Shown in pieces: positions 14,855-60,412 of a stretch of DNA of 64,000 bases (position 1 is the stretch's first letter; each line of letters begins with the position of its first letter). The stretch is from Aradus depressus (lineage: Eukaryota; Arthropoda; Insecta; Hemiptera; Aradidae), in the NCBI GenBank assembly GCA_963662175.1, contig OY759225.1, forward strand, positions 11,339,601-11,403,600, in the 5' to 3' direction. The notes below the pieces were generated by a model, which saw nothing but the letters and a program-made list of their open reading frames with translations, ran no database searches and was not told where the DNA came from. Made by a program: the position numbers and the translations under genes.

Positions 14855-15060
14855 ATTGTCTAATTTCATAAAAATATATACATAAAGTGTACCGGTTTCG
14901 GCTTACGCCATCTTCAGCACAAAGTTCAAAAGTGACATTTAAGTTTGTCATATTTATACAAATCTCAGATTATCTGAGTTAAACTGTGATTGTAACTGTG
15001 GGTAAGTCTCACCTTAACAAAACATTTACAAATATTTGAGTTGTCAATTACCTATCTAAT
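14855..15060 (-). mobile_element. solitary inverted-repeat-element arm with hammerhead-like core
   Basis: On the minus strand at 14917-14894: CTGAAGA, one extra T, stem GGC/GCC with loop GTAA, then GAAACCGG. This is the same layout as IRE-A to D but a different sequence family. No second arm was found nearby. The short frames are not coding. Confidence 0.5.
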
Positions 15061-15102
15061 AAAATAAAGGAAACACCAAAATAATAAAAATATAATAGTA
15101 AG

Positions 15103-15106
<4 letters not shown>

Positions 15107-15148
<42 letters not shown>

Positions 15149-15300
15149 ATTTACAGACAGACATCATCGTGAAAAAGGTCAAAACGTATTCAGGGGACCT
15201 TGAAACCTCGATCTCAGATTTTCGCACGATACTACAGATATAAGAAACTGTGTGTGCAGTTAGTACACACGTTTGAACTCTAACTTTCGTACCTAACTCT
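15107..15300 (-). repeat. poly(A) run and Rep-1 head fragment
   Basis: 15108-15147 is an A run of about 40. 15165-15240 is the minus-strand Rep-1 head ('AACGTATTCAGGGGACCTTG', GATCTCAGATTTTCGCACGAT). The same blocks occur at 30330-30390 and 35850-35920. Confidence 0.6.
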
Positions 15301-15432
15301 TCTAGTTTCTGTTTCTTTTTGTGCTAATAGACTATATTTTTATTTTTATAATTGGTATTAACATTGATACAGGATAGAAAATAATTAAATTCAGGAAATT
15401 TTTTTAATCATACAATATGTTGGTAACAATTT

Positions 15433-15660
15433 CTATTTACAGTTTATTTTTTTTTTTTTTGGTCTTATGTTCGATGCATATTAGCCATGTCACTGTGTTA
15501 TCTAATTATTTACGACATCCATGGTCCTGGGAGGGAGCTCTATTCACGAAATAAAACTCACTTCCAGATGGGATTCGAACCCGCAAACCAAGGTGAGACC
15601 ATGCGACCAAAGCCCTACGCTCTAGCCTGCACGGCCACCATGGCTCCCCTATTTACTGTT
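15433..15660 (-). mobile_element. SINE-B (tRNA-derived, poly(A) tailed)
   Basis: Read on the minus strand it starts GGGAGCCATGGTGGCCGTGC, has a B box (GGTTCGAATCCC), and ends in a poly(A) tail (T run at 15448-15460). Imperfect flanking repeats (TATTTACAGTTTA near 15434 and TATTTACTGTTAA near 15649) look like an aged target duplication. It is unrelated in body to SINE-A. The frame at 15487-15684 is a shadow. Confidence 0.8.
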
Positions 15661-15984
15661 AATAAGGTTATATTGATTTATTAACTTATAGATACGATAT
15701 GTATTGATTTTCAAACAAGCGAAAAGTTAGTTCAGAATGATAAATAAAATTGTGATTTTGACAGGTTTTTTTTTACAATTTTAACGAGACCCGAAATTTA
15801 TATGAACACTGAAATGGCTAACAGTCCTTTGTGATCTTAAAATGTTGGCTGTTCTTTTCAGTGTAATTTCAAACATTTAAGGTACCCTTAAACCTGTCTC
15901 GAAGTCACCTGTTGGCAAACTTACAAACTCGGAATATCCCTTTAGAAGTTATGCTCCTCATAAAGGTCAAACCAAATAAAACAA
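15661..15984. other. AT-rich stretch, nothing recognised
   Basis: A/T-rich DNA with a T run near 15767. No supported gene or repeat. Confidence 0.35.
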
Positions 15985-16032
15985 AACGAGAACTGATTCT
16001 TAACACAACTACGTCATCATCAGTAGTACATC
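15985..16032 (-). mobile_element. IRE-B arm fragment
   Basis: 'CACAACTACGTCATCATCAG' is the minus-strand IRE-B core (CTGATGA then TGACGTAGTTGTG). It matches the arms at 22.57, 23.81, 59.44 and 59.55 kb. It directly abuts the MITE-T copy at 16033. Confidence 0.55.
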
Positions 16033-16225
16033 TATGTGATGTGCCCATTACAGGATTTCCTTATACGAACCATGCTTACAGATCAGTCACTCTCCCCCCT
16101 TCTCAAAATTATTTCCTACTGGCATTACTGGGTATAAGAATGTCAATTCTCCAGATAATGCTGTACAAAGAGACAAAATGAAATGATTTTGAAAAGAGAA
16201 AGGGGAGAGAGAGTAATCTGCAAAT
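16033..16225. mobile_element. MITE-T copy
   Basis: The left end TGTGATGTGCCCATTACAGG continues ATTTCCTTATACGAACCATGC. The right arm carries the reverse complement of the inner block (GAAATGATTTTGAAAAGAGAAAGGGGAG). It matches copies at 30948-31171 and 59089-59337. The outer right end is lost. The frame at 15912-16181 is a shadow. Confidence 0.65.
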
Positions 16226-16271
16226 CGATTCAAGCGCCTCTAGTAGCATCTCTTTGAAGGTCAATAAAAAG

Positions 16272-16278
16272 AAAACCT

Positions 16279-16312
<34 letters not shown>

Positions 16313-16514
16313 GCCTTATGTACGATGCATATTAGCCATATCTCTTGTAAGGGAGTTATCTAATTATTTGACGACATCCATGGCCCCGGGAGGGAGTTCT
16401 ATCTACTAAATAAAACTCACTCCCGGACGGGATTCGAACCCGCAAACCATGGTGAGACCATGCGACCAAAGCCCTACGCTCTAGCCCGCACGGCCACCAT
16501 GGCTCCCAAAACCT
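16272..16514 (-). mobile_element. SINE-B copy with flanking duplication
   Basis: Same body as the copy at 15433-15660, with about 37 T (poly(A) on the minus strand) at 16280-16311. Flanks AAAACCTAA (left) and AAAACCTCA (right) differ by one base and fit a target duplication. B box: GGTTCGAATCCC. The frame at 16356-16574 on the minus strand is a shadow of the element. Confidence 0.82.
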
Positions 16515-17232
16515 CATTAAAAAAAGATGTCGGTGTATCACCATCGATGTACTTCCCCAACAGGAATTAATCAATCACTTTTCCTCCAAAACTAGAATAA
16601 CTACTGATGTAAAAAGACAATAACTCGAATAACTGCTGATGTAAAAAGATAATAACTCGAATAACTGCTGATGTAATGAATGTATCAATACAAAATTTAC
16701 CATCAAGATTTAGAAGTTTCTATGTAAGTCAACTATTGATTTTTCGCGCAAAAGGTCGATTGGTTTTTCAGGGAGAGCAAAAACTTAAACTATTTTTTTT
16801 TTATTACGCAATCAGGAGGCTGAAAAACATGAAATTCCGTTGAAAACTCAACATCGAATTTCTGACTAATTATAGTAAACGAAGAGCCGTCTGTGTAAAA
16901 TGATGGCTTCCGGGGCTTGAGGCTTAAAAGCCCTAGTAGATCCGCCATTTTCCTAAATTTAATACTATAGAAAGGATCAAGTGTATCATATTTAAGTCGT
17001 CATTTTACATAACTATACATGCATGGGTTCATGTTGGTATTACCATCGCAACAGTTAATTAAGCGGGTTTAATCTGAACTCTGATGTCATTTGGGTCACT
17101 TAAGTTGAAAATATTATACAGGTACCACATGAGTTCGTGTTGAGAGCTGTCGCACATAAAGGGACCACCCAATCGATACTCACAACACACGCTTACAAAA
17201 AAGATTTTATTGGTTCTTACAAAAAACGTTCT

Positions 17233-17233
<1 letters not shown>
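16515..17233. repeat. Rep-2 copy and unassigned flank
   Basis: 16545-16860 is Rep-2 ('GTACTTCCCCAACAGGAATT', 'GTAAGTCAACTATTGATTTT', a short repeated AATAACTGCTGATGTAA block). 16890-17200 shows no recognisable feature. Confidence 0.5.

Positions 17234-17271
<38 letters not shown>
17234..17271. repeat. (TAA)n microsatellite
   Basis: About 12-13 uninterrupted TAA units. It may be the tail of a LINE related to the TAA-tailed family at 20.5, 31.85 and 54.75 kb, but no body is attached. Confidence 0.85.
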
Positions 17272-17274
<3 letters not shown>

Positions 17275-17357
17275 CTTTTTTATTGGTTATCCTTACAGTG
17301 AGGTCCGATTGTTTATCTTCTTTAATAAATTTCCAATTACTGAAATTTGAGGTTGAC

Positions 17358-17877
17358 TCAAGAAAAATATCGCAGGATGTCAAATATAAGGTAGTCTGAC
17401 CTCTCACAGATTTTTATTAAAGTAATAGCTAGCCGGCTTTCGAGGTTTCCCTCATCATCAGGCAGTCTGATAAAAAAATTTTTGAATAAACTAAATAATA
17501 AAAATAAATAAATAAAAATCTACAACAAACATTAACAATTTAAAATATCATGGATGGGGACAGACGAGTTATTCCTGTCCACCATCTGAGTCACAACTGC
17601 AGTTGTGACTCAGATGGTGGACAGGAATAACTCGTCTGTCCCCATCCATGATATTTTAAATTGTTAATGTTTGTTGTAGATTTTTATTTATTTATTTTTA
17701 TTATTTAGTTTATTCAAAAATTTTTTTATCAGACTGCCTGATGATGAGGGAAACCTCGAAAGCCGGCTAGCTATTACTTTAATAAAAATCTGTGAGAGGT
17801 CAGACTACCTTATATTTGACATCCTGCGATATAATCACTTCTCACTACATCAGCCATCTTCATATCAAGAAAAATAT
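17358..17877. mobile_element. IRE-A element: 466-bp perfect palindrome with tail and 13-bp target duplication
   Basis: 17367-17832 is an essentially perfect palindrome centred between 17599 and 17600 (CTGCAG at the centre) with no spacer. It is followed on one side only by a 32-base tail (17833-17864). The flanks are identical 13-mers, TCAAGAAAAATAT, at 17358-17370 and 17865-17877. Each arm carries a hammerhead-like core: plus at 17738-17761, minus at 17438-17461 (CTGATGA, T, GAGG-GAAA-CCTC, GAAA), followed by GCCGGC. Inverted arms, a one-sided tail and 12-13 bp duplications resemble Penelope-like elements. No protein is encoded. Confidence 0.88.
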
Positions 17878-18007
17878 TGTATGTGTGTGTCTGTGAACAC
17901 GATAACTTTCGATAGAATGAATGTATCAATCTGAAATTGTAGGTATATGTGTATCCAGAATCCTAAAAGGAAGTCACCAATTCAGCCAAATCCGCCTAAA
18001 GGAAGGC

Positions 18008-18300
18008 GTGGGTTCGAAACCCGACCGAGGCCTTTAGTTTATTTTATCTGGGAGGTAAAATAAACTTAAGCACGCCGTCCTTCGGATATGACGTTAAGCG
18101 ATGATTCCGAGCCTGTACGATGTCAGATACTCGTTAAAGACCCCTGCCCTAGGTGAATACAAATTTAGGGTAGGCAAAATTTAGGACTCCCATAGTGGAG
18201 TCGGGCTCATGTCAACCAGAGTGACGAAAGAGCGCTCTGTTAGTAGTCGATATGACCTCGTAGTTAAAGCCCGGGCATGAGTCATAAAATCTAACCTAAC
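18008..18300 (+). mobile_element. SINE-A, 5'-truncated, inside Rep-2
   Basis: Starts within the B-box region (GTGGGTTCGAAACCCGACCG) and runs to CATAAAATCTAACCTAAC. It splits a Rep-2 copy (17870-18007 and 18301-18342: left 'AGCCAAATCCGCC', right 'AACACAAAATTTCATATGTG'), so it is younger than Rep-2. Confidence 0.88.
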
Positions 18301-18344
18301 GAAATCTCAACACAAAATTTCATATGTGAATTTAATTTTCTGCA

Positions 18345-19568: not shown

Positions 19569-20312
19569 TTTTTTTATTTATTTATTTGCAATCTATATAC
19601 ATTTTATATAATGAGCAAATATGTTAACTGTATGCATGCAGCCAGCGCTGACACTCCCTAGAAACTAGTGCAATGTTTAGATTTCCCTTAGAAGATCTCG
19701 AGGCCACCTCCTATTCAGACGGCGTGGAGGATTGTCAGGATGGGATTGAGAGGATAGGACTTGTGCAAATGGGTTAGGATGGGATGAAAGTTTATTGTGG
19801 AAATTTAAAAATCGGGATTGGACGAGTTCTTGGACGGTTGGGATGTTTAGGTCTTCATGGAGTAATTTATTGGTGACGTAGAAGGGAGCATTTACAATTC
19901 GACGAAGGACTTTGGACTGGAAAGCTTGGATGCGGTTTATATTGGATTGTTTGGCTGTACCCCATAGTTCGAGGCCGTATGTCCATATTGGGCGTATTAT
20001 AGTCTTGTAAATGGTCAATTTGTTGGCAGTAGAAAGTTTTGATTTTGGTCCAAGTAGTCTACGTAGTAGTCCGTAACGTCGATTCAACTCTTGTCGTTTA
20101 AGTCGTGTGTGTGGGTTCCACGTCAGTCTGCTGTCTAAGTAGAACCCGAGGTAACGCACCTGGTTAGAGGAAGGAATTAGAACGTTGTTGATGGTGACGG
20201 GAGGGCACGTTTGATGGCGAAGTGCGAATGTAACCTGTACACATTTCTCTTCATTTAATTTCATCCGCCAGAGGTTACACCATTTCTCGATTTCATCGAG
20301 ATGTTCCTGGAG
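19569..20312 (-). pseudogene. jockey-type LINE, C-terminal reverse transcriptase, 5'-truncated
   Basis: The minus-strand frame ends at 19677. It reads EIEKWCNLWRMKLNEEKCV, 'VRYLGFYLDSRLTWNPHTRL', 'IYKTIIRPIWTYGLELWGTA', and finishes NPPRRLNRRWPRDLLREI. These are the thumb and connection of a jockey-clade reverse transcriptase after the YADD active site, which is missing. About 210 of some 900 residues remain. The T-rich 3' end is at 19568. The odd N-terminus (a run of F) is translation of the A run at 20333-20354 and is not part of the protein. The surviving frame is intact, so the insertion is young. Confidence 0.9.
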
Positions 20313-20486
20313 AAGGAATACTATAATTAAAAGAAAAAAAAAAAAAAAAAAAAAACTAGCTGTGGTACCGGTGCTTAGCACATACGTATTAAATTAATAA
20401 AATTAAAACAAAAACTTATATTTTGTTTGTAAGATGCACACCAAATGGTTAAATTTTCGTTTTCTTCTAGTCCATTTCGCATACAA

Positions 20487-21954: not shown

Positions 21955-22035
21955 ATGGGCCTCTGATGATGACACAGTTGTGTTGAAAACCATTGGATTG
22001 GAAATAAAACAGTGGGAAGACAACCTCTTTTATTA
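21955..22035 (+). mobile_element. IRE-B solitary arm
   Basis: CTGATGA at 21963, one extra T, stem GACACA/TGTGTT, GAAA at 21985. Then AACCATTGGATTGGAAATAA and AACAGTGGGAAGACAAC, the family's outer block. No opposing arm is nearby. Confidence 0.6.
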
Positions 22036-22526: not shown

Positions 22527-23868
22527 TGTTGTCTTCCCACTGTTTTATTTACAACCAGAACCAGCTTTCAACGCAACTAAGTCATCATCAGTTGCACATC
22601 AGTGAATACAAATAAAATATGAGGACGCCTGTAGCTCATCGGTATGGTGCTTGCTTAATGAGATCGAGATCGTGGGTAAGAAACTCAGATGAGGCCCTTA
22701 GGTTTTTTATCTGGGAGGTGAAATGCCGTCCTTAGAACGGGACGTTAAGCGATGGTCCCGAGGCTATACGATGTCAGGTACTCGTGAAAGACCCTTGCCC
22801 TAGGTGAATAAAAATTTAGGCTAGGCAAAATTTAGGACTCCAACAGTAGAGTCGGGCTCATGTCCACCAGAATGACGAAAGAGCGCTCTGTTAGTAGGCG
22901 ATATAACCTAATTAAAGCCCGGGCATGAGTCATAATAACTAACTATATGTTATTTATGACGTTTAGAAAAATAAAATAATTTATTTTATTCTTGTCCAAT
23001 AACATATCTATTTGTTCTGAGACAAAATTGTTTCTGGAAACCATACAATTTGTCATAAGCAATTTACTTGACAACTACAATTATATTCAATTGAAAGATG
23101 GTTAAAAAAAAAAATTCGACGGTCAATCACTAACAATGTACTTCCCCAATTAAGTTTTCGCACTCCCTCTAAAACGAATCAACTTTTTTTTAGCTAAAAA
23201 TCAATAGTTGACTTACATTGATACTAAATTCCATATCGATACATTCAGATCCCTTAGGCCAACTTGACTGAAAATCATCAGTTGTTGTAAATGATATCAG
23301 ATACGTTATTGATGATTCCTAGTCTGTACGTTAAAGACCCCTAAACCCAGGTGAATAAAAATTTAGGGTAGGCAAAATTTAGGCGTTATGATCTCGTATT
23401 TAAAGCCCGGACGTGAGTCATAATAACTAACAATATTGATAATAAAAAATTTATAACCAAGAACCATTTACAATATATTTTTTTAATTGTTAAATTCATG
23501 TTTATAGTTAGTAATTATGACTCATGCCCTGGCATTAACTACATGTTCATATTGCCTACTACCAGAGCGCTCTTTCGTCACTCTGGTGGACATGAGCCCG
23601 ACTCTACTGTTGAAGTCCTAAATTTTGCCTACCCTAAATTTTTTGGGACCATCACTTAACGCCCCATTCTAAGGACGGCATTTCACCTCCAAGATAAAAA
23701 AACCTAAGGGCCTCGTCTGAGTTTCTTACCACGATCTTGATCTCATTAGGCAAGCACCATACCGCTGAGCTACAGGCGTCCTCATATTTTATTTGTATTC
23801 ACTGATGATGACTCAGTTGCGTTGAAAGCTGGTTCTGGTTGTAAATAAAATAGTGGGAAGACAACGTC
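22527..23868. mobile_element. IRE-B composite: inverted arms, each including a SINE-A
   Basis: The outer arms 22527-22620 and 23785-23868 are inverted copies (GTTGTCTTCCCACTGTTTTA, and on the other side TAGTGGGAAGACAAC). Each has a hammerhead-like CTGATGA core (minus at about 22600, plus at 23812). Directly inside, SINE-A plus (22623-22945) mirrors SINE-A minus (23503-23785). The spacer 22946-23502 holds a Rep-2 piece (about 23090-23290) and a further SINE-A fragment (23290-23434). Including the SINE, the arms are about 360-420 bp. Either the SINE was captured before arm duplication, or two SINEs inserted symmetrically. The former is simpler. Confidence 0.8.
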
Positions 23869-27904: not shown

Positions 27905-28355
27905 AAAAAAAAGTTAAAAACGAATAGGATTTAAGGTGGCAGTAAGTCGCGGTGCCATCTTCTCTTCAACCTTCGTGGGGGGTTTTGTGGTAAGTGTTGT
28001 GAAGATAAAGTACGTATTTCTGGGTTTGTATGGGTGTAAAGTTTTCTAAAAAAACGTATGTAAGTAGTTTGTATTGTGTCGGGTACTGTGTGTATCATAA
28101 GATCGTTATGAAGTGTTCTGTTGTTTATGTATGGGGGGCACTGTGTTATCAGTCTGAGGGTTTTTGACTGAAACGCCTGAATTCGTTTGATGTTGGATGT
28201 TTTTGTTGAACCGTATATCTGTGATCCGTATGTCCATAACGGTCTCAGTAAGTAAGTGTAACAGTTCCGTTTTTGTGTCATGTCTAATTTTGATCGTCTA
28301 TTTAGAAGTCCGTAGAGTATTTTGTGTCGACGGTTCAGCGTGTTTCGTATGAGAC
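27905..28355 (-). pseudogene. jockey-type LINE, reverse transcriptase C-terminus
   Basis: The minus-strand frame ends at 27931. It reads RNTLNRRHKILYGLLNRRSK, 'CYTYLLRPLWTYGSQIYGST', 'IQAFQSKTLRLITQCPPYIN', and ends NPPRRLKRRWHRDLLPP. The A run at 27897-27912 lies next to the 3' end, but on the plus strand, so it is not this element's tail. Truncated at 28355. The frame is intact over about 140 residues. Confidence 0.88.
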
Positions 28356-28619
28356 TTGAAAAATAATAAAATAAAATACACATAATAAATATCTTTATAA
28401 AAACCAGCCAAAAAACTTTTTACAATACATCTCTCACAGGACAGCTACTTCCCTTAGTTTTGGATCAATCTCTCACACCAGGTAGGTCAGGCAGCAGAAG
28501 GGAGTTCTTAACCTCTACATTTTTGTTAAGACTGTTCGTATCCTCATATAACGAAAGTCGGATCTCCAAGCCTTCTAGGATATCCGTACGTCTTCCCTTG
28601 GTATCCTCCAGTTTTCAAA

Positions 28620-32119: not shown

Positions 32120-32225
32120 AAACTCTTCGGAAGTGTTTTTATCACAACGATGTTTCGGGACGTTCTTACGTCCCTCCATCAGGTCCCAATGTGCGAGATA
32201 TAGAAAAGAAAGAAAACAATGTAAC
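32120..32225 (-). mobile_element. hammerhead-like motif with 7-bp stem, solitary
   Basis: Minus strand, 32184-32152: CTGATGG, A, then GGGACGT-AAGA-ACGTCCC and GAAACATCG. The stem is perfect. Layout as in IRE-A to D, but the CTGATGA core has changed to CTGATGG or gained one base. No mirrored arm was found nearby. Confidence 0.5.
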
Positions 32226-34189: not shown

Positions 34190-35950
34190 AAACCAGTTGG
34201 TCCGCTCTGGCTCCAAATCAAAACCAAAAGATCCAATTTTTCAATAGGGACAATCGTTTTCGGGTAAATGAAGAAACGTCTAAAAATATGTGTTTCAAAA
34301 CATTCTCTGACTGTTTTCGGCATATATCCCAAACCGGGCGACCTGCAAAACATTGTATTGTATAGATGTTTGCTAGCGACTATAGAATTCAAAATTCTGG
34401 GGGTATTGAGGGTCAGTCAATGAAGAAAACACTATTCAAATGCCAACGTTTCGATATATTTCATATCATCATCAGGGCCTAACAAACATGGGGGTATCAA
34501 GATTAGAAAAATATAATGGGTGATCGATTAAAATTATATATAGGTACATAAATATACATTCACTCATACACCTCCACATAAATACATATATACATCCTAA
34601 TACATTCACATACATATACACATTGATGAACAACAAGGAAACTTACTATGAATATAGATGGTTGAGGAGAAGGCATGAAGACTGTGAGGTCTTACGTTCA
34701 ACTAAGGGTACAGAAGGGTCGAGGGTAACAGATAATAAATCCGGGGAAAACCCCAGTTAACGGCACTTAAATTTGAAGATAACTACTTACTGGCTAACAG
34801 ATATTTTACTATGTTGAGAAAAAATATAAAATAAAATAAAAACTCTATAATTATATAAATAGTAACATAATTTAACTTATTAATTAAATGAAGAATTTTA
34901 GACAGAAGTGACACTAACCAAAAATGAAATAATGCTGAATCCATAGTTCTGTCTCCAATTATATTTAATATTTAAAATTTAGATTAATTTCATTGTGTGT
35001 CTATTTATTCTTTATTATGTATTATTTCATTTTCGGTTAGTGTCACTTCTGTCGAAAATTCTTCATTTAATTAATAAGTTAAATTATGTTATTATTTATA
35101 TAATTATGAGTTTTTATTTTATTTTATTTTTTCTCAACATAGTAAAATATCTGTTAGCCAGTAAGTAGTTCTCTACAAATTTAAGTGCCGTTAACTGGGG
35201 TTTTCCCCGGATTTATTATCTGTTACCCTCGACCCTTCTGTACCCTTAGTTGAACGTAAGACCTCACAGTCTTCATGCCTTCTCCTCAACCATCTATATT
35301 CATAGTAAGTTTCCTTGTTGTTCATCAATGTGTATATGTATGTGAATGTATTAGGATGTATATATGTATTTATGTGGAGTTGTATGAGTGAATGTATATT
35401 TATGTACCTATATATAATTTTAATCGATCACCCATTATATTTTTCTAATCTTGATACCCCCATGTTTGTTAGGCCCTGATGATGATATGAAATATATCGA
35501 AACGTTGGCATTTGAATAGTGTTTTCTTCATTGACTGACCCTCAATACCCCCAGAATATTGTATTGTATATAAATTGTTTGTTATAGTTTTCTCTACAAC
35601 GTTTATTTGTAAAGATTTTTATAAGTATAAGCGGTATTTTGTAAATTGTACTTAGGCCCTGGAATAAAGTGGTCTCAATTTTCTTCTGATTTGTGCCAAA
35701 ATCTAATTACATCTAAGTTAGCACATGTCCCTCCTGCATTCCAAACTTCAAGTTCGTCGCATTAATTTCTGCTTTAGAGCACTCAGAAAGTTTCAATGAC
35801 ATACACAGATACGTGCCCACACTTACATCATCGGGAAAATGGTCAAAACGTATTCAGGGGACCTTGAAACGTGAAAATCCGTTGAAACATCTATCTCGGA
35901 TTTTCGCAAGATTACAATAGGTACTTGTTTATACTAAAGGTATAAGACAT
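34190..35950 (-). repeat. Rep-1 copy (minus strand), interrupted by IRE-D
   Basis: 34190-34351 and 35570-35950 together make one minus-strand Rep-1 copy: 'GGGACAATCGTTTTCGGGTA' on the left, and 'CTTCAAGTTCGTCGC', AACGTATTCAGGGGACCTTG and the head palindrome near 35915-35945 on the right. The IRE-D insertion separates them, which proves IRE-D is younger. Confidence 0.8.
34352..35569. mobile_element. IRE-D element with 12-bp target duplication and one-sided tail
   Basis: ATTGTATTGTAT flanks at 34352-34363 and 35558-35569. After a 30-base one-sided tail (34364-34393), inverted arms run from 34394 to about 34935 and from about 35020 to 35557, over 500 bp each and highly similar, around a ~85-base spacer. 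Hammerhead-like cores lie at 34475-34448 (minus) and 35476-35503 (plus): CTGATGA, T, GATAT-GAAAT-ATATC, GAAAC. No protein is encoded. This is the largest inverted-repeat element in the window. Confidence 0.88.
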
Positions 35951-36234
35951 TTAAAAAAAAGTACTTTGAGGGATATACTATTTCCTTCTTTGAGGCCAAA
36001 CAACTTATTTATTGTAATACAGACAATATAATAAAAAAAAGCACACATTGATTGAAAAAATAATAAAACATTGAAAATTCTTTAAATAAAAATTGAAATT
36101 ATACATGAATGAAAATATTACAGGTCTATACAACAAGAATTAAAGAAAAGGGTTAAACAATAAAGAAAAACGTATGTTTTAAAAAAAATATATAATATGG
36201 GAGCACTTTCGGTATTGCTACCTGTACTATATAG

Positions 36235-36474
36235 GTTAGGTTAGGTTAGGTTTTATGACCCATGCCCGGGCTTTAACTACGAGGTCATATCGCCTACTAC
36301 CAGAGCGCTCTTTCGTCACTCTGGTGGACATGAGCCCGACTCTACTGGGGGAGTCCTAAATTTTGCCTACTCTAAATTTTTATTCATCTAGGGTAGGGGT
36401 CTTTAACGAGTACCTGACATCGTACAGGCTCGGGACCATCGCTTAATGTTCCATCCGAAGGATGGCGTCCTGTA
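36235..36474 (-). mobile_element. SINE-A, 5'-truncated, with telomere-like tail
   Basis: Begins with TAGGTTAGGTTAGGTTTTAT (the tail read from the other strand), then a minus-strand body up to CCATCCGAAGGATGGCG. The head is missing. 35951-36234 before it is AT-rich with nothing recognised. Confidence 0.88.
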
Positions 36475-37230: not shown

Positions 37231-37468
37231 CTATAGGTTAGGTTAGGTTTTATGACTCATGTCCGGGCTTTAACTATGAGGTTATATCGCCTACTACCAG
37301 AGCAATTTTACCTACCCTACATTTTTATTCATCTAGGGTAGGTGTTTTTAACGAGTATCTGAAATCGTACAGGCTCGGGACCATCGCTTAACGTCCCATC
37401 CGAAGGTCGGCGTGCTTAAGTTTATTTTACCTCCCAGATAAAATAAACTGATCTATTGGCGCCCTCTT
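37231..37468 (-). mobile_element. SINE-A, inverted partner with internal deletion
   Basis: TAGGTTAGGTTTTATGACTC tail, body to CTCCCAGATAAAATAAACT, then a jump to the head end GGCGCCCTC (the B-box part is deleted). With 36948-37230 it makes an inverted pair joined at telomere-like repeats. Confidence 0.86.
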
Positions 37469-38524: not shown

Positions 38525-40205
38525 TATATATATATATATATTTTTTTTTTGTCTTTAAAAATGTTGGTCGCAACTGTTGCCAGAGAGGACTTCCTCTTGG
38601 TAGCTGGTTGTGGTTCAATCAAGTGATTGAAAGTGGATGACTTGATTGGCATGAGAGAGGAAGGCCACCCAGCGGTAGCTCCGCTGAGCGAAATTTAAAA
38701 CATTGAATAATATGGTTATTATCAACGAATGGGGATATTATGATTTTAAATAAAATAAACTTATTTCTGAAATATTGTCTATTCCACTAAAGATATATAT
38801 ATATATAACTACCGGTTTCGGCCTTACACCATCGTCAGGTCTAGTTATGAACTAAGTTAGTTTGCAGAGAGCAACCCTTCAAATACATCTCAGGTGAAAG
38901 GGTGCTATTAAAACTTGGGAGTCCCCCGGCTGTACCGTTAGCTATCTCATGAAATATTTCCTAACAAAACTTAGTTCTAAATTTACATAAAACAATATCA
39001 TTAGACTAATACGTGGAAAAATAACCAATAAATAAGTAACAATACAAATAAATAATCAAAATATAAATAAAATTAATAATAATGTTAAGATTTAGATAAC
39101 ATTAAATATATATGTGGAACCAAATATTAATAACAGATAATACAAACATATATGTGGAAACAGAACTGGTTCAGGGTGTTAACAAAGGGGAATAGTTGAA
39201 ATAAATTTGGTCATTCATACAAATGTTCTTTTTGGTAGCTTTATTTATTTCTAATTGTTCTAAGCTATCAAGTAGCCTGCTTTTTGAGCAATAGTGGAGA
39301 TATTTGATGCCTGTAGATGGATCGAAAGTGTTGTATTGTCTATATAATTTTCACCTGAGATGTATTTCAAGGGTCGCTCTCTGCAAACTAACTTAGTTCA
39401 TAACTAGACCTGACGATGATGTAAGGCCGAAACCGGTAGTTATATATATTTATATCTTTAGTGGAATAGACAATATTTCAAAAATAAGTTTGTTTTATTT
39501 ATTTATTACAAGTTTCCACAATATGTCCGCGTTCTTCAACTTAGAAGTTATTATGATTTTGTTTCAAGTGGGTGGATGCAATTTGGAATTATATTAAGTC
39601 ACGGTTCCATCTCCTCATTCTGCTGGGAGGATTGTGTGGCAAGTGTAGTGAAGAAAGTGAGTGGGTGTATGGATTTGGGTGTGAATGCAATTTGCTAAGG
39701 AAACGTCTGTAAAGGTCCTGAATTGTGTCGTGTACTGTGTTCATCATGAGGTCATTGTGAAGTGTTCTGTTACTTACATATGGTGCGCATTGTGTAATGG
39801 GTCTGAGTATGGATCTGACTGGAAAACCTGGATACGTTTCAGGTTAGATATTTTAGCCGAACCGTAGATTTGTGAGCCATACATCCAGAGTGGCTTTAAT
39901 AGAAATGTGTAGCAGTTACGCTTTTGTGTGTTAATTTTGTATGTCTGTGCAGAAGAGAATAAAGAACTTTAAATCGTTTGTTTGGTGTGTAGCTGAGGCT
40001 TGTATGAGGGTTCCATGTCATTCGTCTGTCCAGAGTAAGTCCCAAATATCTTACGGTGTTAGTCTGAGGGAGGGGCTTGTTGTAAATAAAAACGGCGGGA
40101 CATGTATCTCATCTTAATGTAAATGTTATATGTTGTGATTTGTTCGTGTTGAGTTTAATTTTCCAAATGTTGCACCAGTTCTCAATTTGAGTAACATGGT
40201 GTTGT
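38525..40205 (-). pseudogene. jockey-type LINE, second copy, split by IRE-C
   Basis: 38545-38735 is the 3' UTR and 39561-40205 the ORF part of one element, matching 25795-26635. The poly(A) tail is the T run near 38545. Minus-strand coding resembles the 25.8-kb copy (GSQIYGSAKISNLKRIQ region, TNTVRYLGLTLD). Several frameshifts are present. The 12-base TATTATGATTTT at the split is duplicated around IRE-C. The 5' side is truncated at 40205. Confidence 0.82.
38736..39560. mobile_element. IRE-C element with 12-bp target duplication
   Basis: TATTATGATTTT occurs at 38736-38747 and 39549-39560. The arms are about 38760-38915 and 39340-39500. Cores lie at 38838-38814 (minus: CTGACGA, T, GGT-GTAAG-GCC, GAAAC) and 39410-39433 (plus). 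The host LINE copy at 25.98 kb has the site uninterrupted. A one-sided outer block (ATTACAAGTTTCCACAATAT up to 39548) plays the part of the tail. It is 801 bp without the duplication and encodes no protein. Confidence 0.9.
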
Positions 40206-42363: not shown

Positions 42364-42624
42364 TATTTAGTTAGTTTAAACAGGTTTAGAGGTTGTAAAA
42401 AAATATATAGTCTGACCTCTCACTTCATTAATTTTTGCTACCCGGCTTTCGAGGATGCCCTCATCATCAGGCAGTCTGGTAAAATATGTTTCAAAATTAT
42501 TTTACCAGACTAAAAACCTCGAAAGTCGACTAGCAAAAATTTATAAAATCTATGAGGTCAGACTATATTTTATTTTACAATCATTTCTCACTACATCAGT
42601 CATTTTCTAATTATTTAGTTAGTT
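42364..42624. mobile_element. IRE-A short copy with 13-bp target duplication
   Basis: TATTTAGTTAGTT lies at 42364-42376 and 42612-42624. Inverted arms around about 42490 carry one intact hammerhead-like core (minus 42470-42446: CTGATGA, T, GAGG-GCAT-CCTC, GAAAG) and one shrunken core. The IRE-A tail (CTCACTACATCAGTCATTTT) is at the right. Arms are shortened, but it is the same family as 17358-17877. Confidence 0.82.
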
Positions 42625-42892: not shown

Positions 42893-43204
42893 TTTCTAGT
42901 GATATTGTTTTATGTAAATTTAGAACTAGGTTTTGTTAGGAAATATTTCATGAGATAGCTAACGGTACAGCCGGGGGACTCCCAAGTTTTAATAGCACCC
43001 TTTCACCTGAGATGTATTTGAAGGGTCGCTCTCTGCAAACTGACTTAGTTAATAACTAGACCTGACGATGGTATAAAGCCGAAACCGGTAGTTATATATG
43101 TATATATATCTTTAGTGGAATAGACAATATTTCAAAAAATAAGTTTGTTTTATTTATTTATTACAAGTTTCCACAATATGTCCGCGTTCCTCAACTTAGA
43201 AGTC
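42893..43204 (+). mobile_element. IRE-C single right arm
   Basis: Matches 39330-39548 and the spacer side of that element. Core at 43062-43085: CTGACGA, T, GGT-ATAAA-GCC, GAAAC. It ends with the same outer block, ACAAGTTTCCACAATATGTC. The left arm is absent, so this is a truncated insertion. Confidence 0.8.
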
Positions 43205-43229
43205 ATTTTATTTTATCTTTATTATTATT

Positions 43230-44192: not shown

Positions 44193-45065
44193 TTGTTATA
44201 CTGTGCCCTTATCCCTGCAGGAGAGGACAGTAAACAGAGTTGGTATAAGAAAGCCATCAAGTTAAACCATTGTGTTATAATTTACATTCCTGGCCTTAAA
44301 TAACTTCCTATTATTTTAACCAGCCATTCTTAAAAAATCCTTAAATTACTGTCAGCTATTAATATTTATAATTATGTTTCTTTTACTAATTATTAAAAAG
44401 AAGAGCTACATGTTTCTCATTTCCTCAGACAAGGAACAGCTTAAGGTAAATCCTGTCTTAGTCGGTAGACATTAATTAACAGAGAAATTTTATCTTCGTG
44501 AAAAACGGGTGTAGTTAATTGGTATAATTTTTATCTCAGAGTTTTAAAAAAACAAAAAAAGAAAAGTTCTATATCAATAACAATGTTATCAATTTTTTAA
44601 ATTGTGACGGCTTGACTTTGTCGTTATTATGAAAAATACTTTTTTCGTATTCGTTTTTGTAAGTAAATTGAATATTAAAATACACTTAATCTCAAACAAT
44701 TTGTTTAAATTTGATTCCTCTGATATTATATTAAAATAAAACTTAAAAAAATATTGTTGCGAGCACCATCAATATACTTCCCCATTATGAATTAATTAAT
44801 TAACCTCTCTTCCTAAAATAAATATTTGACTTTTATCCTTTTCAATCCTTATACTAAATTTTGTGTAGATACATTCATTATTTTGCCATTATCTCTTTAT
44901 TAGCACATTTGCTTGTTCTATTTATTTGTATACAGTTGTAAATAGCTATTTGTAAACAAAAAAAAAAAATTCCTGTAGTAATTATAGCTGGTCTTTTACT
45001 AAAAAAAAAAAAAAATATTTATGTGTGAACTAGTAAGGTCCTTGCTATGAGATTTGTATCTCTAT
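44193..45065. repeat. MITE-T scrap, Rep-2 scrap, AT-rich DNA
   Basis: 44230-44275 resembles a MITE-T end (GTTGGTATAAGAAAGCCATC). 44755-44930 is a diverged Rep-2. The rest is AT-rich with A runs. No gene. Confidence 0.45.
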
Positions 45066-45792
45066 TAGGGTGTCCGTTATTTTGTAAAAGTTAAAATGTC
45101 TTTGCTCTCACCCCAGAAACTGGCTCAGAATATCGAAAAAATATTGCCTGCATTTTTTCAGATTTTTTCCATTGTAATAAACCGTGCCGGTAAGGCGCTC
45201 AATTTTAACACGGGATTTTCGAACTTTTAACGATTTTTGAATATATTTTCAAGTCTTTTAGACCTAAAAATCACATATACCGTCAAAACCCCCCTTTTCA
45301 ATCTGAAAACAAAAAAAATAATCAACAACAAAAGACTAATGACAGTTTTTGACCGCTGCTACTGTCAAAAAGTAAATTTTGACAAAAAATTTACAATCAG
45401 CGACGTGAAAAAAAAATAAAATCGTACCAAACAATGGTATTTTTTACTTAAAATTGATAAATTGACATTTTTTGGTAATAAATGACAGTTTTTTGACGGT
45501 TGAAACAGTCACAAATTAAATTCTGACAGAGAATTCGAATTCAGCGACCCCAAAATATGTGATTTTTCAGATTTTTAGGTCTAAAAGACTTGAAAATATA
45601 TTCAATAATCGGTAAAAGTTCGAAAACCCCATTTAAATCCCGTGTTAAAATTGAGCGCCTTACCGGCACGGTTTATTACAATGGAAAAAATCTGAAAAAA
45701 TTCAGGCAATATTTTTTCGATATTCATGAACCAGTTTCTGGGGTGAGAGCAAAGACATTTTAACTTTTACAAAATAACGGACACCCTAATCT
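45066..45792. mobile_element. foldback-type element with about 205-bp inverted ends
   Basis: The left end AGGGTGTCCGTTATTTTGTA is mirrored at 45765-45789 (TACAAAATAACGGACACCCT). The arms extend inward to about 45275 and 45570, including the mirrored 'AAGTCTTTTAGACCTAAAAA'. The interior has a ~145-base direct repeat (AATGACAGTTTTTTGAC at about 45338 and 45481). No hammerhead-like core. The frame 45237-45419 is not coding. Confidence 0.85.
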
Positions 45793-46442: not shown

Positions 46443-47264
46443 TTAAAAAAATCTAAATAAAACAAACTTATTTTTTGAAATATTGTCTATTCCACTAAAG
46501 ATATTTACAACTACCGGTTACACACACATTGCACACAACATTAACTACCGGTTTCGGCCTCACACCATCGTCAGGTCTAGTTATGAACTAAGTCAGTTTG
46601 CAATGTGCGACCCCTCCAATACATCTCTGGTGAAAGGTGCCACTTCAATTAGGGAATCCCCCGGCTTAACCGTTAGCTACATCATGAAATATTTGACAAA
46701 ACACTAATTTTTCTCAATTTACATAAAATAACATCCTTTGACTAATAAGTAAAAAATAAAAATAAAAAACGTAACAGATAATAACATATATATGGAAACC
46801 TATAATCATAACACTTTGCTAACACCCTGAACCGGTTCTATTTCCACATATACCTATGTTTGTTATTATCTGTTATGATTATAGGTTTCCATATATATGT
46901 TATTATCTGTTATGTTGTTTAGTTTTATTTTTTACTTATTAGTCAAAGGATGTTATTTTATGTAAATTGAAAAAAATTAGTGTTTTGTCAAATATTTAAT
47001 GATGTAGCTAACGGTTAAGCCGGGGGATTCCCTAATTGAAGTGGCACCTTTCTCCAGAGATGTATTGGAGGGGTCGCACTCTGCAAACTAACTTAGTTCA
47101 TAACTAGACCTGACGATGATGTGAGGCCGAAACCGATAGTTTTATTTTTGTAAATATCTTTAGTGGAATAGACAATATTTCAAAAAATAAGTTTGTTTTA
47201 TTTATTTATTACAAATTCCACAATATGTTCGCGTTCCTCAACTTAGAAGTTGTTAAAAAAATCT
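46443..47264. mobile_element. IRE-C element with 12-bp target duplication, inside pogo relic
   Basis: TTAAAAAAATCT lies at 46443-46454 and 47253-47264. Arms and outer block are as in 38736-39560, with a similar 798-bp body. Cores at 46574-46551 (minus) and 47110-47133 (plus), CTGACGA then GAAAC. The central part (46780-46930) is a near-palindrome around CTATTTCCACATATACC. The frame 46483-46707 is a shadow. Confidence 0.88.
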
Positions 47265-49775: not shown

Positions 49776-50803
49776 CTAGCTTCAGAATACATGGACACTA
49801 CCCAAGCCGAAAGTCATATCCCGCTTAGGCCGACTAAACAAAGCAGAAACCCCACCAAATGTCTACAAGATCATGTTCTCTAAAATAAGACGAACCTTCC
49901 ATGGGTACCAAAACATTTACACGGACGGATCGAAAAGCGAGGAACATGTAGGCTATGCTGTGGTAACCCAGTCTTCAGTGTATAAATGCAGGCTGCCAAG
50001 CTACTGCAGCAGTTACACTGCAGAACTGTGCGCCGTTGCTGAAGCAATGAGTTTTGTTACTTCCGATGTAGGTCGGAACTACATGATTTGTAGTGACTCC
50101 ATCTCCGCTCTTCAGAGTATCCAACAGTTTAACAGCCGCTGCCCCCTAGTATATAAAATACAAAAGCTTCTCGGGAATTGCATAAGGGATAGCAAGCAAG
50201 TGGTTTTTTGCTGGATTCCCTCACACGTGGGTATTGAAGGGAACCATGCTGCAGATAGAATGGCAAGGGAAGCAGCAGCGCTGCCTGGAGAAGGAAGAAC
50301 AATAACGACAATTTCGGACCTAAAGATCTGCATACATCACAAAATAAAAGAGAGCTGGACCTCTTTGTGGACCAACATGGACCCAACAAATAAACTTAGG
50401 TCCATCAAAGCTAATGTTGACAAATGGCAAAGCTCTGAAAGACAGAATAGACAGGAGGAGGTATGTTTGATGCGGCTCCGTGTAGGTCACACTCGCCTAA
50501 CCCATGGCCACCTCATAACCAGGGCGATGGCCCCGGGCTGTGGCGGGTGTGGGGCCTGGCCTCTCACAGTAAGTCACATCCTGGAGGAGTGCCCTGGATA
50601 TGAGGATATACTAAAGGCCATGGGTTTGCATAAAAGGGACCTACATGAGATGCTCGGAGACGACAACTCATCTATTGAAGCTGTCCTAAACACGATGAAA
50701 ACAACACACCTCATAGATCTAATTTAATCGAGTTAAAGGCGTCAAAAATCTTTGTCATTGGACGCCGATAAATAAAAACTATTCTATTCTATTTCTAGCT
50801 TCA
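49776..50803 (+). mobile_element. 5'-truncated LINE carrying RNase H, with 9-bp target duplication
   Basis: CTAGCTTCA flanks at 49776-49784 and 50795-50803. The 1,010-base insert ends GATAAATAAAAACTATTCTA then TTCTATTT, the 3' tail. It is the only long coding fragment on the plus strand and one of two plus-strand LINE pieces. The open frame and exact duplication mark a recent insertion. Confidence 0.88.
49873..50727 (+). CDS. RNase H domain and C-terminal Cys/His segment of an I-like LINE ORF2
   Basis: 284 residues from the first ATG; the frame is probably open upstream within the truncated element. All four RNase H acidic sites are recognisable: NIYTDGSK (Asp), YTAELCAVAEA (Glu), ICSDSISAL (Asp), and HVGIEGNHAADRMA (His/Asp). 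After a linker, RVGHTRLTHGHL and CGGCGAWPLTVSHILEECPG give the C..C.......H....C finger common at the end of I- and R1-like ORF2 proteins. Endonuclease and reverse transcriptase are missing, so the element cannot move by itself. Uninterrupted over 284 codons. Minus-strand frames here are shadows. Confidence 0.92.
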   Translation: MFSKIRRTFHGYQNIYTDGSKSEEHVGYAVVTQSSVYKCRLPSYCSSYTAELCAVAEAMSFVTSDVGRNYMICSDSISALQSIQQFNSRCPLVYKIQKLLGNCIRDSKQVVFCWIPSHVGIEGNHAADRMAREAAALPGEGRTITTISDLKICIHHKIKESWTSLWTNMDPTNKLRSIKANVDKWQSSERQNRQEEVCLMRLRVGHTRLTHGHLITRAMAPGCGGCGAWPLTVSHILEECPGYEDILKAMGLHKRDLHEMLGDDNSSIEAVLNTMKTTHLIDLI

Positions 50804-55832: not shown

Positions 55833-55836
55833 TGTT

Positions 55837-56685: not shown

Positions 56686-56691
56686 GTTGGG

Positions 56692-57020: not shown

Positions 57021-57069
57021 ACATCTCCGTCAGACGCTGCTTGTGATCATATAAAAATGTGGTCATAAT

Positions 57070-57170
57070 GGGACTTTCATAACCTCCCATCCGAAGGATG
57101 GCATGCTCAAGGTTTTTACACCAACTAGATTGAGCTCATCCTCTGAGCTACCGGCATTCTCTCTCATACT
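57070..57170 (-). mobile_element. SINE-A scrap
   Basis: CTCCCATCCGAAGGATGGCA and CCTCTGAGCTACCGGC are the outer parts of a minus-strand copy with the middle lost. Confidence 0.65.
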
Positions 57171-57605
57171 GTAGGTATAAAAAAGTAAAAATATTATTTA
57201 CTACCAAGAAAAATTACATAATATAAAATTATTTTGGAGCAGAGCTCCTTAGTCTCTCTGTGAGTTGGTAAAATAGTTACGACACGGAAATGGCAACGAA
57301 AGTTTCACTCTCCCCACCCCGACTCCGCCGACTGGCATTAGGAAGGTTTGGGAGGGGATGAATGAATCTTGGCGGGCTTTGTATCGATATGACTCCTCAA
57401 TTTTTGAATATGACCTTTGAATGGATATTTCAATTTGTAATTTTGCAGAAGAGAGGGCTTAAACCATTGATTAAGTTTCTTTATGACACATTCAAACTGA
57501 GAATGGTTAATGATCGAAAGTTAACTATATACAACAAGAGATTATCTACATAAACGTGGCACAACTATAGTCACTGTTTTTGCGAAATTCGTAGAAAAGA
57601 TAAAG
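57171..57605. other. unassigned stretch
   Basis: 57295-57360 is briefly GC-rich (ATGGCAACGAAAGTTTCACT, a 22-codon open frame). Nothing else was recognised. The 63-residue frame 57362-57553 has no supporting evidence. Confidence 0.35.
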
Positions 57606-58137
57606 AAAAAACCTCCATTACTCGAAATCTCAACCCTCTATTAGTCGAAATAATCAGTGATATTTTCCCTCTATAACTCGAAAAAATAAATTGGACCTCT
57701 GTATCTCGAACATAGCAATGTTTTATTTTACAACCTTTACAACTCGATTATTTGAAACTTATTACCTCTATAGCTCGAAGAAAAATAAGTTACCGACTTT
57801 AAGAATTTGCCGACAGTGTACACCATTGTTTCTTAGAAAACAATTCAGGAGTACACAATAAATAGGATTACCAATTATCTAAAGCAAAAAAAAATTACTG
57901 ACTTTTTTTAATACCTACATATACTACGTATTTTTTATTTTAAGGATGTTTTGAAATAATGTTGATTTATAATAAATATAAATATGTTTGTTACCTCTGT
58001 AACTTGAATTTTTATTTATTTCACCTCTCTAACTCACAATTAGTTAGAATGAATCTTAACCTCTACAAGTCGAAAACTCTATAACTCGAATTTTTTTGCG
58101 TCTCCCTTGATGTTCGACTTATAGAGGTTCTACTGTA
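57606..58137 (-). mobile_element. pogo/Tigger-type MITE, second copy
   Basis: Inverted match of 27168-27770. The outer end reads TATAGAGGTTCTACTG|TA at 58123-58137. Repeated TATAACTCGAA-type motifs run along its length. The other end, near 57607, again lacks the terminal CAG. Confidence 0.8.
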
Positions 58138-59088
58138 TATGATTCCATGACAAATTGTACATTACACTATAAAATTGTATATTATACTATTTTAACATTA
58201 TAATATTATGTAAATAAAATTTTATTACAACTACTCCTTATAAATTTACATGAACAATTTTATAATTTGAAATAATTTCAATTTAAAATGACTTTTGGCC
58301 AAAAATTATTTTCAACCAAAAAACATCAGGGAGGAGCTCCGTTCCTGGCGCGCCTTCCGTGACGCACACCGGTTTTTGCAAATAATTTGTAACCGCATAA
58401 TCTCCTTCTTTCTTTTGTTCGATTTTGCTGAGAATCAATAGGTGTCGTCGTTCAAGGGTTCTGGATTCACATATAAAATTTTGTGGCGATACATTCTATC
58501 GGAAGTTATCGTATTCACAAGAAGACACACAGACAAAAATTTTATTTTTAATTTTTAGAATCTGGAGGTCGAAAAACATGAAATTCCTTTGAATACTCTG
58601 CATCAAATTTTCGACCGATTACATAACTTCTCCTATACTTCGTATTAGATAAGAATGTAATATGCGAAACTGGCGAATAACAAATTCGCGAATGTTGATC
58701 GACTTACTGTATATTAATGACATTTCTTTTCGAGTTGTATGAAAAGATTGTACATAAAACTGAAATGAATATATTTTTCCTCTTTTTTTTACAGAACTTC
58801 TTATTTTCTTTATTATTAGAATTTGGCCGACGCTATATTGTAGGGCCTTGTGCTAGAATTTCCCAGAGAAATAAGAGGAAAAAAATATCTGTTTACATTT
58901 GAGGAGTGGTTTTGTTGGCACTTTGAGAAGGCCCAAGCCTTCTCAACGACTTGTTTTCATGCCCCAACCCTAGAGTTTCTTATACTTCAAACTTTTTCAC
59001 ATAAAACAACTTCAAGATTCTAATTCCGTTTTTTTTTTTTCATCAGATACTTAAAAAAAAAAATGGAAATAAAGAAAAAAATGAAATA
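58138..59088. repeat. AT-rich DNA, Rep-2 copy, small perfect hairpin
   Basis: 58390-58660 is Rep-2 ('TTTTGCTGAGAATCAATAGG', ACATAACTTCTCCTATACTT). 58923-58946 is a perfect 10-bp hairpin, TTGAGAAGGC-CCAA-GCCTTCTCAA. Not a terminator in a eukaryote; no function known. The frame 58717-58902 is unsupported. Confidence 0.5.
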
Positions 59089-59337
59089 TATGTGATGTGG
59101 CCATAACAGAACTTTCTTATGCCAACCCCATTTTCACATATCACTCTCATAATGATTTCAAACTTGCGATACTGGCTATATGAAAATAATGTGTTGGCAT
59201 CAGCGGTCGTCCTTATTTCATTTTTATATATCGAGTAAACTAGTATGAAATGAACTTTAGCGAGTATGGGGGAGGGAAATTGATCTGTAAAAAAGGGATT
59301 GGTATAAGAAAATCCTTTAATAACCACATCAAATGTA
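59089..59337. mobile_element. MITE-T copy
   Basis: Left TATGTGATGTGGCCATAACA continues GAACTTTCTTATGCCAACC. Right GGGATTGGTATAAGAAAATC continues CTTTAATAACCACATCA. The arms are more diverged than in the 30.9-kb copy. The 122-residue minus frame (59043-59411) is a shadow. Confidence 0.75.
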
Positions 59338-59344
59338 TTTATGT

Positions 59345-59640
59345 GATAGTAAGATGTTGTGGGACGAGATTTCTCATAGAAATAAAAGAACTTGCCTTCC
59401 CACTGTTTCATTTTTGACCAGAACCGGTTCTCAATGCCACAGCGTCATCATCAGTGGTACACATATGATAAAAAATATATAATATACAAATAATGAAAGA
59501 TTTACACTTTTCATTATTTGTATATCAAATTTATTCTATCATAGATTTAACACTGATGATGATGCTGTTGAAAAACGGTTCTGGTCAAAAATAAAACAGT
59601 GAAAAGACAACGTCTTTTGACGTAAAAACGTCTATTCGCT
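59345..59640. mobile_element. IRE-B short copy
   Basis: Arms 59394-59490 and 59505-59612 are inverted (TTCCCACTGTTTCATTTTTG; AAAATAAAACAGTG). Hammerhead-like cores lie at about 59452 (minus) and 59552 (plus, CTGATGA). The outer block ATGTTGTGGGACGAGATTTC to the left matches the tail beyond 23870. There is no SINE inside, unlike the 22.5-23.9 kb copy. Confidence 0.75.
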
Positions 59641-59649
59641 CGTTAACAC

Positions 59650-60244
59650 AGTGATAGCCGGTCAAATTTTCTTGTGTTACAAAATACCGTCAGATTTCAT
59701 TCGATAATAACTACGAGACTAATAATGCGATAACAACGGTTGAGGTCACAGTGGATAGAGCATGTCTGTACGTGTTTGTTGTGCAGTGTTTGTTTTGCCT
59801 GTGACGTTATCGTGCTAGTATGGGCGCCGGCGGATGATTGCTGCGAATTAGCGTTTTGTAAAATTAGAAATTAGTGTAGCGTAATAACGCGTTTAGATAG
59901 GACATTGATTCGGGTGTCATTGTAAATAGCTTGAGAAGCACTATTAGGACTCAAAGTGAAACAATTAAAATATTAGCCGAAATATATGTAAAAATCGGTA
60001 TTAAATTGAAAATTATAAAAACATTAAAGATGTCTCATATGAAGCGTAAATATGCGCGGAATTATAGAAAACGCATATCAGAGGAAAGCTCGCATCAAAA
60101 GGAATTTAAAAAACATAAGAAGTCTAGTGCCGAGCAAATGCAAGAGCTATGGCAGCATCGAAAAGAAAATGAAAAATGATTTTATCCCGACGATTTTCAG
60201 TGGACCTTGACTACGCCTTAATGTTTTTTTCTTTCTATATCTGA
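59650..60244 (+). repeat. Rep-3 copy 2 with small basic ORF (intact site)
   Basis: Continuous match to 25205-25763 plus 26664-26725, without the LINE. The ORF 60030-60179 encodes MSHMKRKYARNYRKRISEES then SHQKEFKKHKKSSAEQMQEL. It differs from the other copy by a few residues, and both keep the frame. 59750-59880 is GC-richer, possibly a 5' leader. Element type unknown. Confidence 0.72.
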
Positions 60245-60412
60245 TATATTTAATTTCAAAAGTTTTTATTAATCAGACTGCCTGATGATGAAGGCAACCT
60301 CGAAAGCCTGCTAGCTAATACAAATAAAAAATCTTTGTGGGGTAAGATTACATCTTATTTGTCAACCTGTGAAATAACCACTTCTCACTATATCAGCCAT
60401 CTTCGTATTGTT
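60245..60412 (+). mobile_element. IRE-A single arm with tail
   Basis: CAGACTGCCTGATGATGAAG (core CTGATGA at 60282), CTCGAAAGCCTGCTAGC, then the family tail CACTTCTCACTATATCAGCC. The opposing arm is missing. Confidence 0.75.

Follow-up and report, generated by a model that had tools for sequence, protein, structure and literature searches.

Probable hammerhead-type ribozyme motifs of Penelope-like elements in truncated head-to-head copies in the genome of Aradus depressus

The window analysed here, a stretch of 64,000 nucleotides from the flat bug Aradus depressus (contig OY759225.1, positions 11,339,601 to 11,403,600, forward strand), contains a short motif that recurs in several families of inverted-repeat elements. 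These motifs are very probably hammerhead-type ribozyme sequences of Penelope-like elements (PLEs), retained in truncated head-to-head copies of the 3′ end. Their predicted action on RNA requires a dimer, in which two copies are joined by a self-complementary stem III. The motif follows a fixed order, namely the core C3UGANGA9, one extra base that is nearly always T, the hairpin of stem II and GAAA, with the extra base located between A9 and the G10.1-C11.1 pair. Sites were located by a structural scan, which required CTGANGA, up to three extra bases, then a stem no shorter than 3 bp and GAAA, and by a covariance model of the 31-nt motif, which was trained on 15 rows, 10 of them window sites that match by construction. 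BLAST grouping placed the window sites in five families, A to E.

Family A comprises the sites at 17461/17738, 42470 and 60282 as well as remnants near 8058 and 9904. Its first copy, A1 (17371-17864), is a perfect palindrome of a PLE 3′ end, whose arms at 17367-17599 and 17600-17832 are 100% complementary; it has a tail on the right and lies between 13-bp target-site duplications, the left at 17358-17370 (TCAAGAAAAATAT) and the right at 17865-17877. The left arm of A1 carries the motif on the minus strand (17431-17461) and the right arm on the plus strand (17738-17768), the latter with its extra T at 17745, stem II at 17746-17757 and the palindrome AGCCGGCT at 17761-17768. The second copy, A2 (42377-42611; 13-bp repeats at 42364-42376 and 42612-42624), has one decayed arm and a minus-strand motif (42440-42470) with a mutated palindrome box. 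A single-arm fragment at 60221-60408 (+) contains the motif at 60282-60312, and the remnant motifs lie at 8058-8088 (+) and 9874-9904 (-). Family B (34475/35476) consists of one head-to-head copy, B1 (34365-35557), which has its tail on the left and 13-bp repeats ATTGTATTGTATA at 34352-34364 and 35558-35570, found by eye and missed by the script; its motifs are at 34442-34475 (-) and 35476-35509 (+), the latter with palindrome ACGT and stem I GCC/GGC.

Family C (38838/39410, 43062 and 46574/47110) includes two head-to-head copies, C1 (38748-39548; 12-bp repeats at 38736-38747 and 39549-39560) and C2 (46455-47252; 12-bp repeats at 46443-46454 and 47253-47264). Their minus-strand motifs are at 38809-38838 and 46545-46574, and their plus-strand motifs, both with a weakened stem II, at 39410-39439 and 47110-47139, respectively. 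The family also has a single-arm fragment at 42895-43214 (+) with the motif at 43062-43091, and the site at 14917 is a distant member at 73-74% identity, labelled motif F (14889-14917, -; stem I GTG/CAC, palindrome ACCGGT). Family D (16023, 21963, 22591/23802 and 59454/59553) contains the head-to-head copies D1 (22528-23865; motifs at 22559-22591 (-) and 23802-23834 (+)) and D2 (59384-59618; cores at 59454 (-) and 59553 (+)), a motif decayed past GAAA (21963-21995, +) and a remnant at 15986-16036 (-) with its core at 16023. Family E is the site at 32182 alone, with no relative in the window; this hammerhead-like motif (32146-32182, -) has the core CTGATGG, an extra A, a stem II of 7 bp and ACATCGT in place of the palindrome. 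Both the structural scan and the covariance model recovered the motifs at 17461, 17738, 34475, 35476, 38838, 42470, 43062, 46574, 21963 and 14917, and the covariance model also those at 60282, 39410, 47110 and 32182, those of D1 and the two family A remnants. The structural scan misses sites with a weak stem or an altered core (39410, 47110, 32182, 59454, 59553, 60282 and 16023), and the covariance model does not recover the decayed window sites 16023 and 59454. All seven stems named in an earlier, sequence-only reading of the window are present, one of them with its core at 32182 instead of 32184.

The sequence CTGANGA occurs 33 times in the window against 20.0 expected, and sites such as 4236, 24322 and 47520, which have no hairpin-GAAA part, look like chance matches. 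Structural matches in the window number 12 with one extra base and 1 with none, compared with means of 0.15 and 0.3 in order-1 shuffles (n = 20); together with the five BLAST families, this count bears out the sequence-only reading, which had described a motif recurring in several arm sequences. In comparison DNA of 200 kb from the same genome (20 loci, 3 of which adjoin the window), the numbers of matches for one, no, two and three extra bases were 8, 0, 2 and 2, where the shuffle means were 1.05, 0.75, 0.6 and 0.9, respectively. The covariance model reported 19 places in the window at E ≤ 1, 13 of these at E < 0.01, and 12 sites in 17 loci among the 20 sampled loci.

The extra base, whose consistency had been remarked on in the earlier reading, is genuine. 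It is T in 19 of the 20 one-base structural matches from the window and the 200 kb, and A in one. Across the assembly (698 Mb in 74 contigs), the GGC/GCC stem class, to which alone the genome-wide stem-class counts refer, has 2,556 copies in which a single extra base is present, 8 in which there are two and 1 in which there is none; a control pattern is represented by 1. Because copies share descent, agreement between families is a better argument than copy counts, and all ten family rows have one extra base, which is T in A, B, C, D, F, H, J and K and A in E and G; of these rows, C and F are distantly related. The first pair of stem II is G-C in 15 of 15 rows, and the second pair is kept in 14 of 15 as GC, AU or CG; the stems covary between families while the core stays fixed, as had been claimed. 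The CUGANGA/GAAA core with G10.1-C11.1 is that of a type I hammerhead (exceptions are CTGATGG in E and TTGATGA in J), whereas stem II does not directly follow A9 as it does in that type. A genome search for canonical spacing gave 14 matches, 8 of which were retrieved (L001-L008). Among these, L004-L008 have a strong stem I, formed for instance by AAGGG and CCCTT, and in most cases an ACGT box, and they look like one minority hammerhead family; L005 and L006 have a standard stem II with no extra base, so the extra base is not universal.

In addition to stem II, the motif has the two other stems of a hammerhead, both of which the sequence-only reading had missed. In most families GAAA is followed by a self-complementary box that runs from A15.1 to U16.1, namely ACGT (family B), ACCGGT (C and F), AGCCGGCT (A), AACCGGTT (D) and ACTAGT (a family found outside the window). 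H17 (A, T or C) lies one base past the box and is followed by a strand complementary to the bases that precede CTGA, which gives the stem I pairs GGC/GCC in B, TGGT/ACCA in D, CAC/GTG in F and GTGGT/ACCAC in the ACTAGT family. Stem I and A15.1-U16.1/H17 thus agree with a type I hammerhead, and they are missing or mutated in several decayed copies. A 6-nt palindrome follows GAAA in 24 of 32 copies from 16 other elements of one stem class, compared with 33 of 1,045 GAAA sites in the window. For stem I, 24 of 40,320 permutations reach the observed pair sum over eight family rows typed from displays, one of which, a decayed copy, pairs at 0. A self-complementary stem III and tandem sense copies, as in dimer-type PLE hammerheads, are both present, except that motif E has no palindrome. 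The suggestion that the motif might be a different conserved RNA element can therefore be set aside, since stems I and III complete the dimer-type hammerhead layout.

The motif is also linked to PLE coding sequence. Two open reading frames (ORFs) of 859 and 776 amino acids, linked to families A and C, both contain the reverse transcriptase domain RVT_1 and a GIY-YIG endonuclease domain, the combination that characterizes PLEs. Each arm of A1 carries the last 18 codons of the 859-residue ORF at 100% identity, and C1 carries the last 53 residues of the 776-residue ORF type at 89%, at 39332-39174. A genome search with GIY-YIG (PF01541) gave 1,852 candidates, of which 150 were scored and 20 were retrieved with about 0.9 kb downstream; the motif lies downstream in sense at 14 of the 20 (10 of family A, 2 of family C and 2 of new families). 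The tie between a hammerhead-type RNA and Penelope-like elements, which the sequence-only reading had mentioned as established, is thereby upheld by ORF ends and downstream motifs. At locus L030, two sense motifs flank one ORF in a tandem arrangement. The two new families are found at L059:602 (stem GCC/GGC, core TTGATGA, palindrome ACTATAGT) and L061:442 (stem GGTA/TACC, palindrome AGTACT).

Coding copies of family A contain a further feature next to the motif. At L029 and L030, a 75-nt stretch with the ends GTATGT and TTTTGTAG stands directly before ACTGC-CTGATGATG. Its 3′ end is retained, once with a single substitution, at all 10 of the family A motifs that follow a GIY-YIG domain. From three copies in the window (17738, 60282 and 42470) this GT-AG stretch is absent with exact borders, so that the outer sequences are joined. 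The stretch is a probable intron, and because it is absent from the short copies and kept in the coding copies, the pattern suggests that the short family A copies probably derived from spliced RNA. Drosophila Penelope reportedly contains a 75-bp intron, of which a literature search found no mention in the papers covered.

The structure of the carrier elements is consistent with PLE insertion. In all 6 window pairs with two recognisable cores, the left copy is on the minus strand and the right copy on the plus strand, and the motifs point outward; a seventh inverted element is counted with 42377, whose second core is decayed. Five of the 7 inverted window elements have 12-13 bp outer repeats and a one-sided tail (four by script and family B by eye), and tail lengths, whether taken from the script or read by eye, are about 29-48 nt; the script left a further 16 nt on the other side of the element at 42377. 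In the genome, 16 of 16 close pairs retrieved among the first 100 matches listed of 2,556 are also head to head. Repeats of at least 9 bp in the one-sided-tail geometry occur in 9 of these 16 pairs against 5 of 240 mismatched flank pairs, which served as the control, and repeats of at least 12 bp in 6 of 16 against 0 of 240; the lengths vary from 9 to 15 bp. Measured by hand from coordinates, the outer element ends lie about 80-120 nt from the core on the short side and about 111-143 nt on the tail side. One-sided tails, variable target duplications and pseudo-long terminal repeats (pLTRs) in tandem (L030) or inverted copies (the head-to-head window and genome pairs) are all features of PLEs. 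Thus, of the inverted-repeat element families described in the sequence-only reading, the inverted arms stand, and the separate elements are better described as 5′-truncated PLE copies joined head to head, with tails and target duplications.

Minimal dimer-type hammerheads of PLEs were reportedly described by Cervera and De la Pena in 2014 and by Lunse, Weinberg and Breaker in 2017, and the title of the latter is said to claim dimer cleavage of PLE hammerhead variants. The layout found here is this minimal dimer-type hammerhead, and its kind is therefore known. Both sets of motifs have the type I layout, a weak or palindromic stem III, dimer action, which is predicted for those here, and location in pseudo-LTRs (PMC7761336, PMC6155905, PMC6466107), and cleavage of PLE hammerheads has been reported to need the stem III palindrome and a tandem arrangement (PMC6466107). 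A possible difference is the near-constant extra base between A9 and stem II in the motifs here. In the literature covered on PLE hammerheads and core insertions, outside which the 2014 and 2017 papers fall, no statement of an extra base was found. Natural hammerheads with core insertions, some still active, and with a palindromic stem III and dimer conformation were reported by Perreault et al. in 2011 (PMC3088659); the insertions given in the available part of that paper stand after A6, within GAAA or next to C3, and none between A9 and stem II as here.

Another close system is Poseidon, a PLE of the lizard Anolis carolinensis (PMC11167929), which likewise has an ORF with reverse transcriptase and GIY-YIG, tandem copies, a hammerhead at the start of the unit and a tail, there explained by two start sites of reverse transcription. 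Reverse transcription of Poseidon starts 111-118 nt into the ORF, and the outer-end distances measured here resemble these sites (PMC11167929). Translation of its ORF begins at stem II, past G8, and 26 nt separate the cut from the A that follows G8 (PMC11167929), equal to the 26 nt from A9 in family A. By analogy, we infer that an identical extra U would be present in the lizard ribozyme, where it would belong to an AUG; the extra base may be old in PLEs. Family A differs from Poseidon in that its large frame has its first ATG only some 150 nt beyond the core and the 75-nt GT-AG stretch precedes the motif. Moreover, Penelope of the rotifer Adineta vaga (PMC3846280) has head-to-head inverted pLTRs, a one-sided tail (31 bp there) and palindromic junctions, and its head-to-head palindromes were proposed to form by self-priming; its target duplications are 8-10 bp, whereas those here reach 12-15 bp. 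The available text on this element contains no occurrence of hammerheads (PMC3846280).

Several observations weigh against the assignment to PLE hammerheads. The Rfam hammerhead models gave no match in the window at gathering or permissive thresholds, nor on a 101-nt stretch; this failure, the outcome that had been named beforehand as adverse, is outweighed by the linkage to PLE coding copies. The miRNA-like Rfam matches are far below their gathering scores and are taken to reflect inverted repeats. Co-folding two family A copies produced the palindromic helix with both stem II hairpins, as expected, whereas for D the palindromic helix appeared but stem II did not, duplexes of other kinds were favoured by B, C and F, and E paired within the strand; the modelled thermodynamic support for a dimer is thus partial. 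Motif E combines an altered core with the absence of a palindrome, and the 2-6 non-conserved stem III bases here depart from the usual none, as a review describes PLE hammerheads as usually having no non-conserved helix III nucleotides (PMC7761336). No motif lies within about 0.9 kb at 6 of the 20 GIY-YIG loci, and a tblastn search, in which three ORFs of families A and C were the only queries, detected no remnant of PLE coding sequence ahead of the copies from families B, D, E, F, G and H. By script, D1 has no target duplication and D2 no credible one, and 7 of the 16 sampled pairs have no repeat of at least 9 bp in the expected geometry.

Long inverted arms with short direct repeats outside them would also be expected of non-autonomous DNA transposons resembling miniature inverted-repeat transposable elements (MITEs), whose terminal inverted repeats merely happened to carry a hammerhead-like fold. 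Such an origin is most improbable: the tail is on one side, so that only one arm extends to an outer end, the terminal codons of an ORF for reverse transcriptase and GIY-YIG lie within the arms, the arms lack the 75-nt GT-AG stretch present in coding copies, and the duplications vary in length (9-15 bp). A MITE or DNA transposon identity was rejected on the tails, the varying duplications, the ORF codons in the arms and the loss of the 75-nt stretch, and a literature search for hammerhead ribozymes in insect MITEs found none. Retrozymes are small non-autonomous elements that carry canonical type I hammerheads and spread via circular RNAs. They share the type I layout and the occurrence in an animal genome, and they co-occur with PLEs in animals (PMC7229834). 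They are nevertheless a very remote explanation here, as the paired copies are inverted and not in direct tandem repeats, the tandem-repeat scan reports no array over the motif sites and PLE ORF ends accompany the motif; the hallmark of retrozymes, canonical type I hammerheads in short units repeated directly in tandem, was not found.

The PLE assignment leaves room for different views of what the motif does today. The hammerhead might be a relic kept by descent, with cleavage and the extra base now functionless. A lizard PLE with a mutated hammerhead inserts normally in vitro, and no reads begin at the cut site in the data described (PMC11167929); the window copies are truncated and several are decayed. 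The stems covary, yet the core is constant and so are the G10.1-C11.1 pair and the palindrome. This pattern points to selection in coding lineages, and a relic is accordingly possible but not favoured. Less likely still, the extra T might be kept because A9-U-G10 forms an AUG start codon and not for the ribozyme. This would fit the 26 nt from A9 shared by family A and the lizard PLE, and GATG is found in most family rows; however, the family A ATG reaches a stop after eight codons, about 150 nt separating the core from the first ATG of the large frame, families B, C and F meet stops within a few codons, and rows E and G have A, not T. For family A, the ATG with the extra T was rejected as the start of the present large frame on these grounds. 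We would also treat as doubtful the proposal that PLE hammerheads form a distinct subtype, in which about ten stem families all retain an obligatory unpaired U9a separating A9 from G10.1; U9a would block monomer cleavage, so that cutting would need two tandem copies and perhaps also a PLE protein. Equally doubtful is the accompanying suggestion that, because the family A motif starts at the probable 3′ splice site, splicing and the cleavage of tandem transcripts could be coupled.

Reading the motifs as PLE hammerheads is well supported and ordinary in kind, and it settles the identity of these inverted-repeat families. The predicted mechanism operates in tandem PLE RNA, where the palindromes would hold two sense motifs together and cleavage of either strand, after H17, would be carried out by the core of the other. 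Reverse transcription might start about 110-145 nt past the core, and the palindromic copies might arise by self-priming or inverted joining. The window copies would mostly be passengers, because a head-to-head transcript has one sense and one antisense motif and hence no dimer in cis. The genome holds thousands of PLE hammerhead motifs, and Rfam reports none in the window. Why PLEs keep a ribozyme that, in the experiments described, is dispensable for insertion in vitro (PMC11167929) can be asked with the natural variants found here, namely the near-constant extra base, a stem III that is palindromic and a probable intron next to the motif.

Other repeats are also present in the window. Two large minisatellites occupy 54-1791 and 1943-3619, with units of 66 bp and 143 bp, respectively, and the former has long repetitive open frames on both strands. 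An interspersed high-copy repeat, about 280 bp long and represented by L031:1209-1492, has matches at more than 10 places in the window, including 36230-36259 and 37232-37256, where it adjoins TAGGTTAGGTTAGGTT runs resembling telomere repeats. A MITE-like inverted-repeat element without the hammerhead motif lies at 45064-45790, with the ends TTAGGGTGTCCG and the 8-bp repeat ATCTCTAT at both ends. As well, open frames are found at 19677-20381 (-), 27931-28383 (-) and 49873-50727 (+), which, by reading alone, we take to resemble pieces of non-LTR reverse transcriptase or RNase H.

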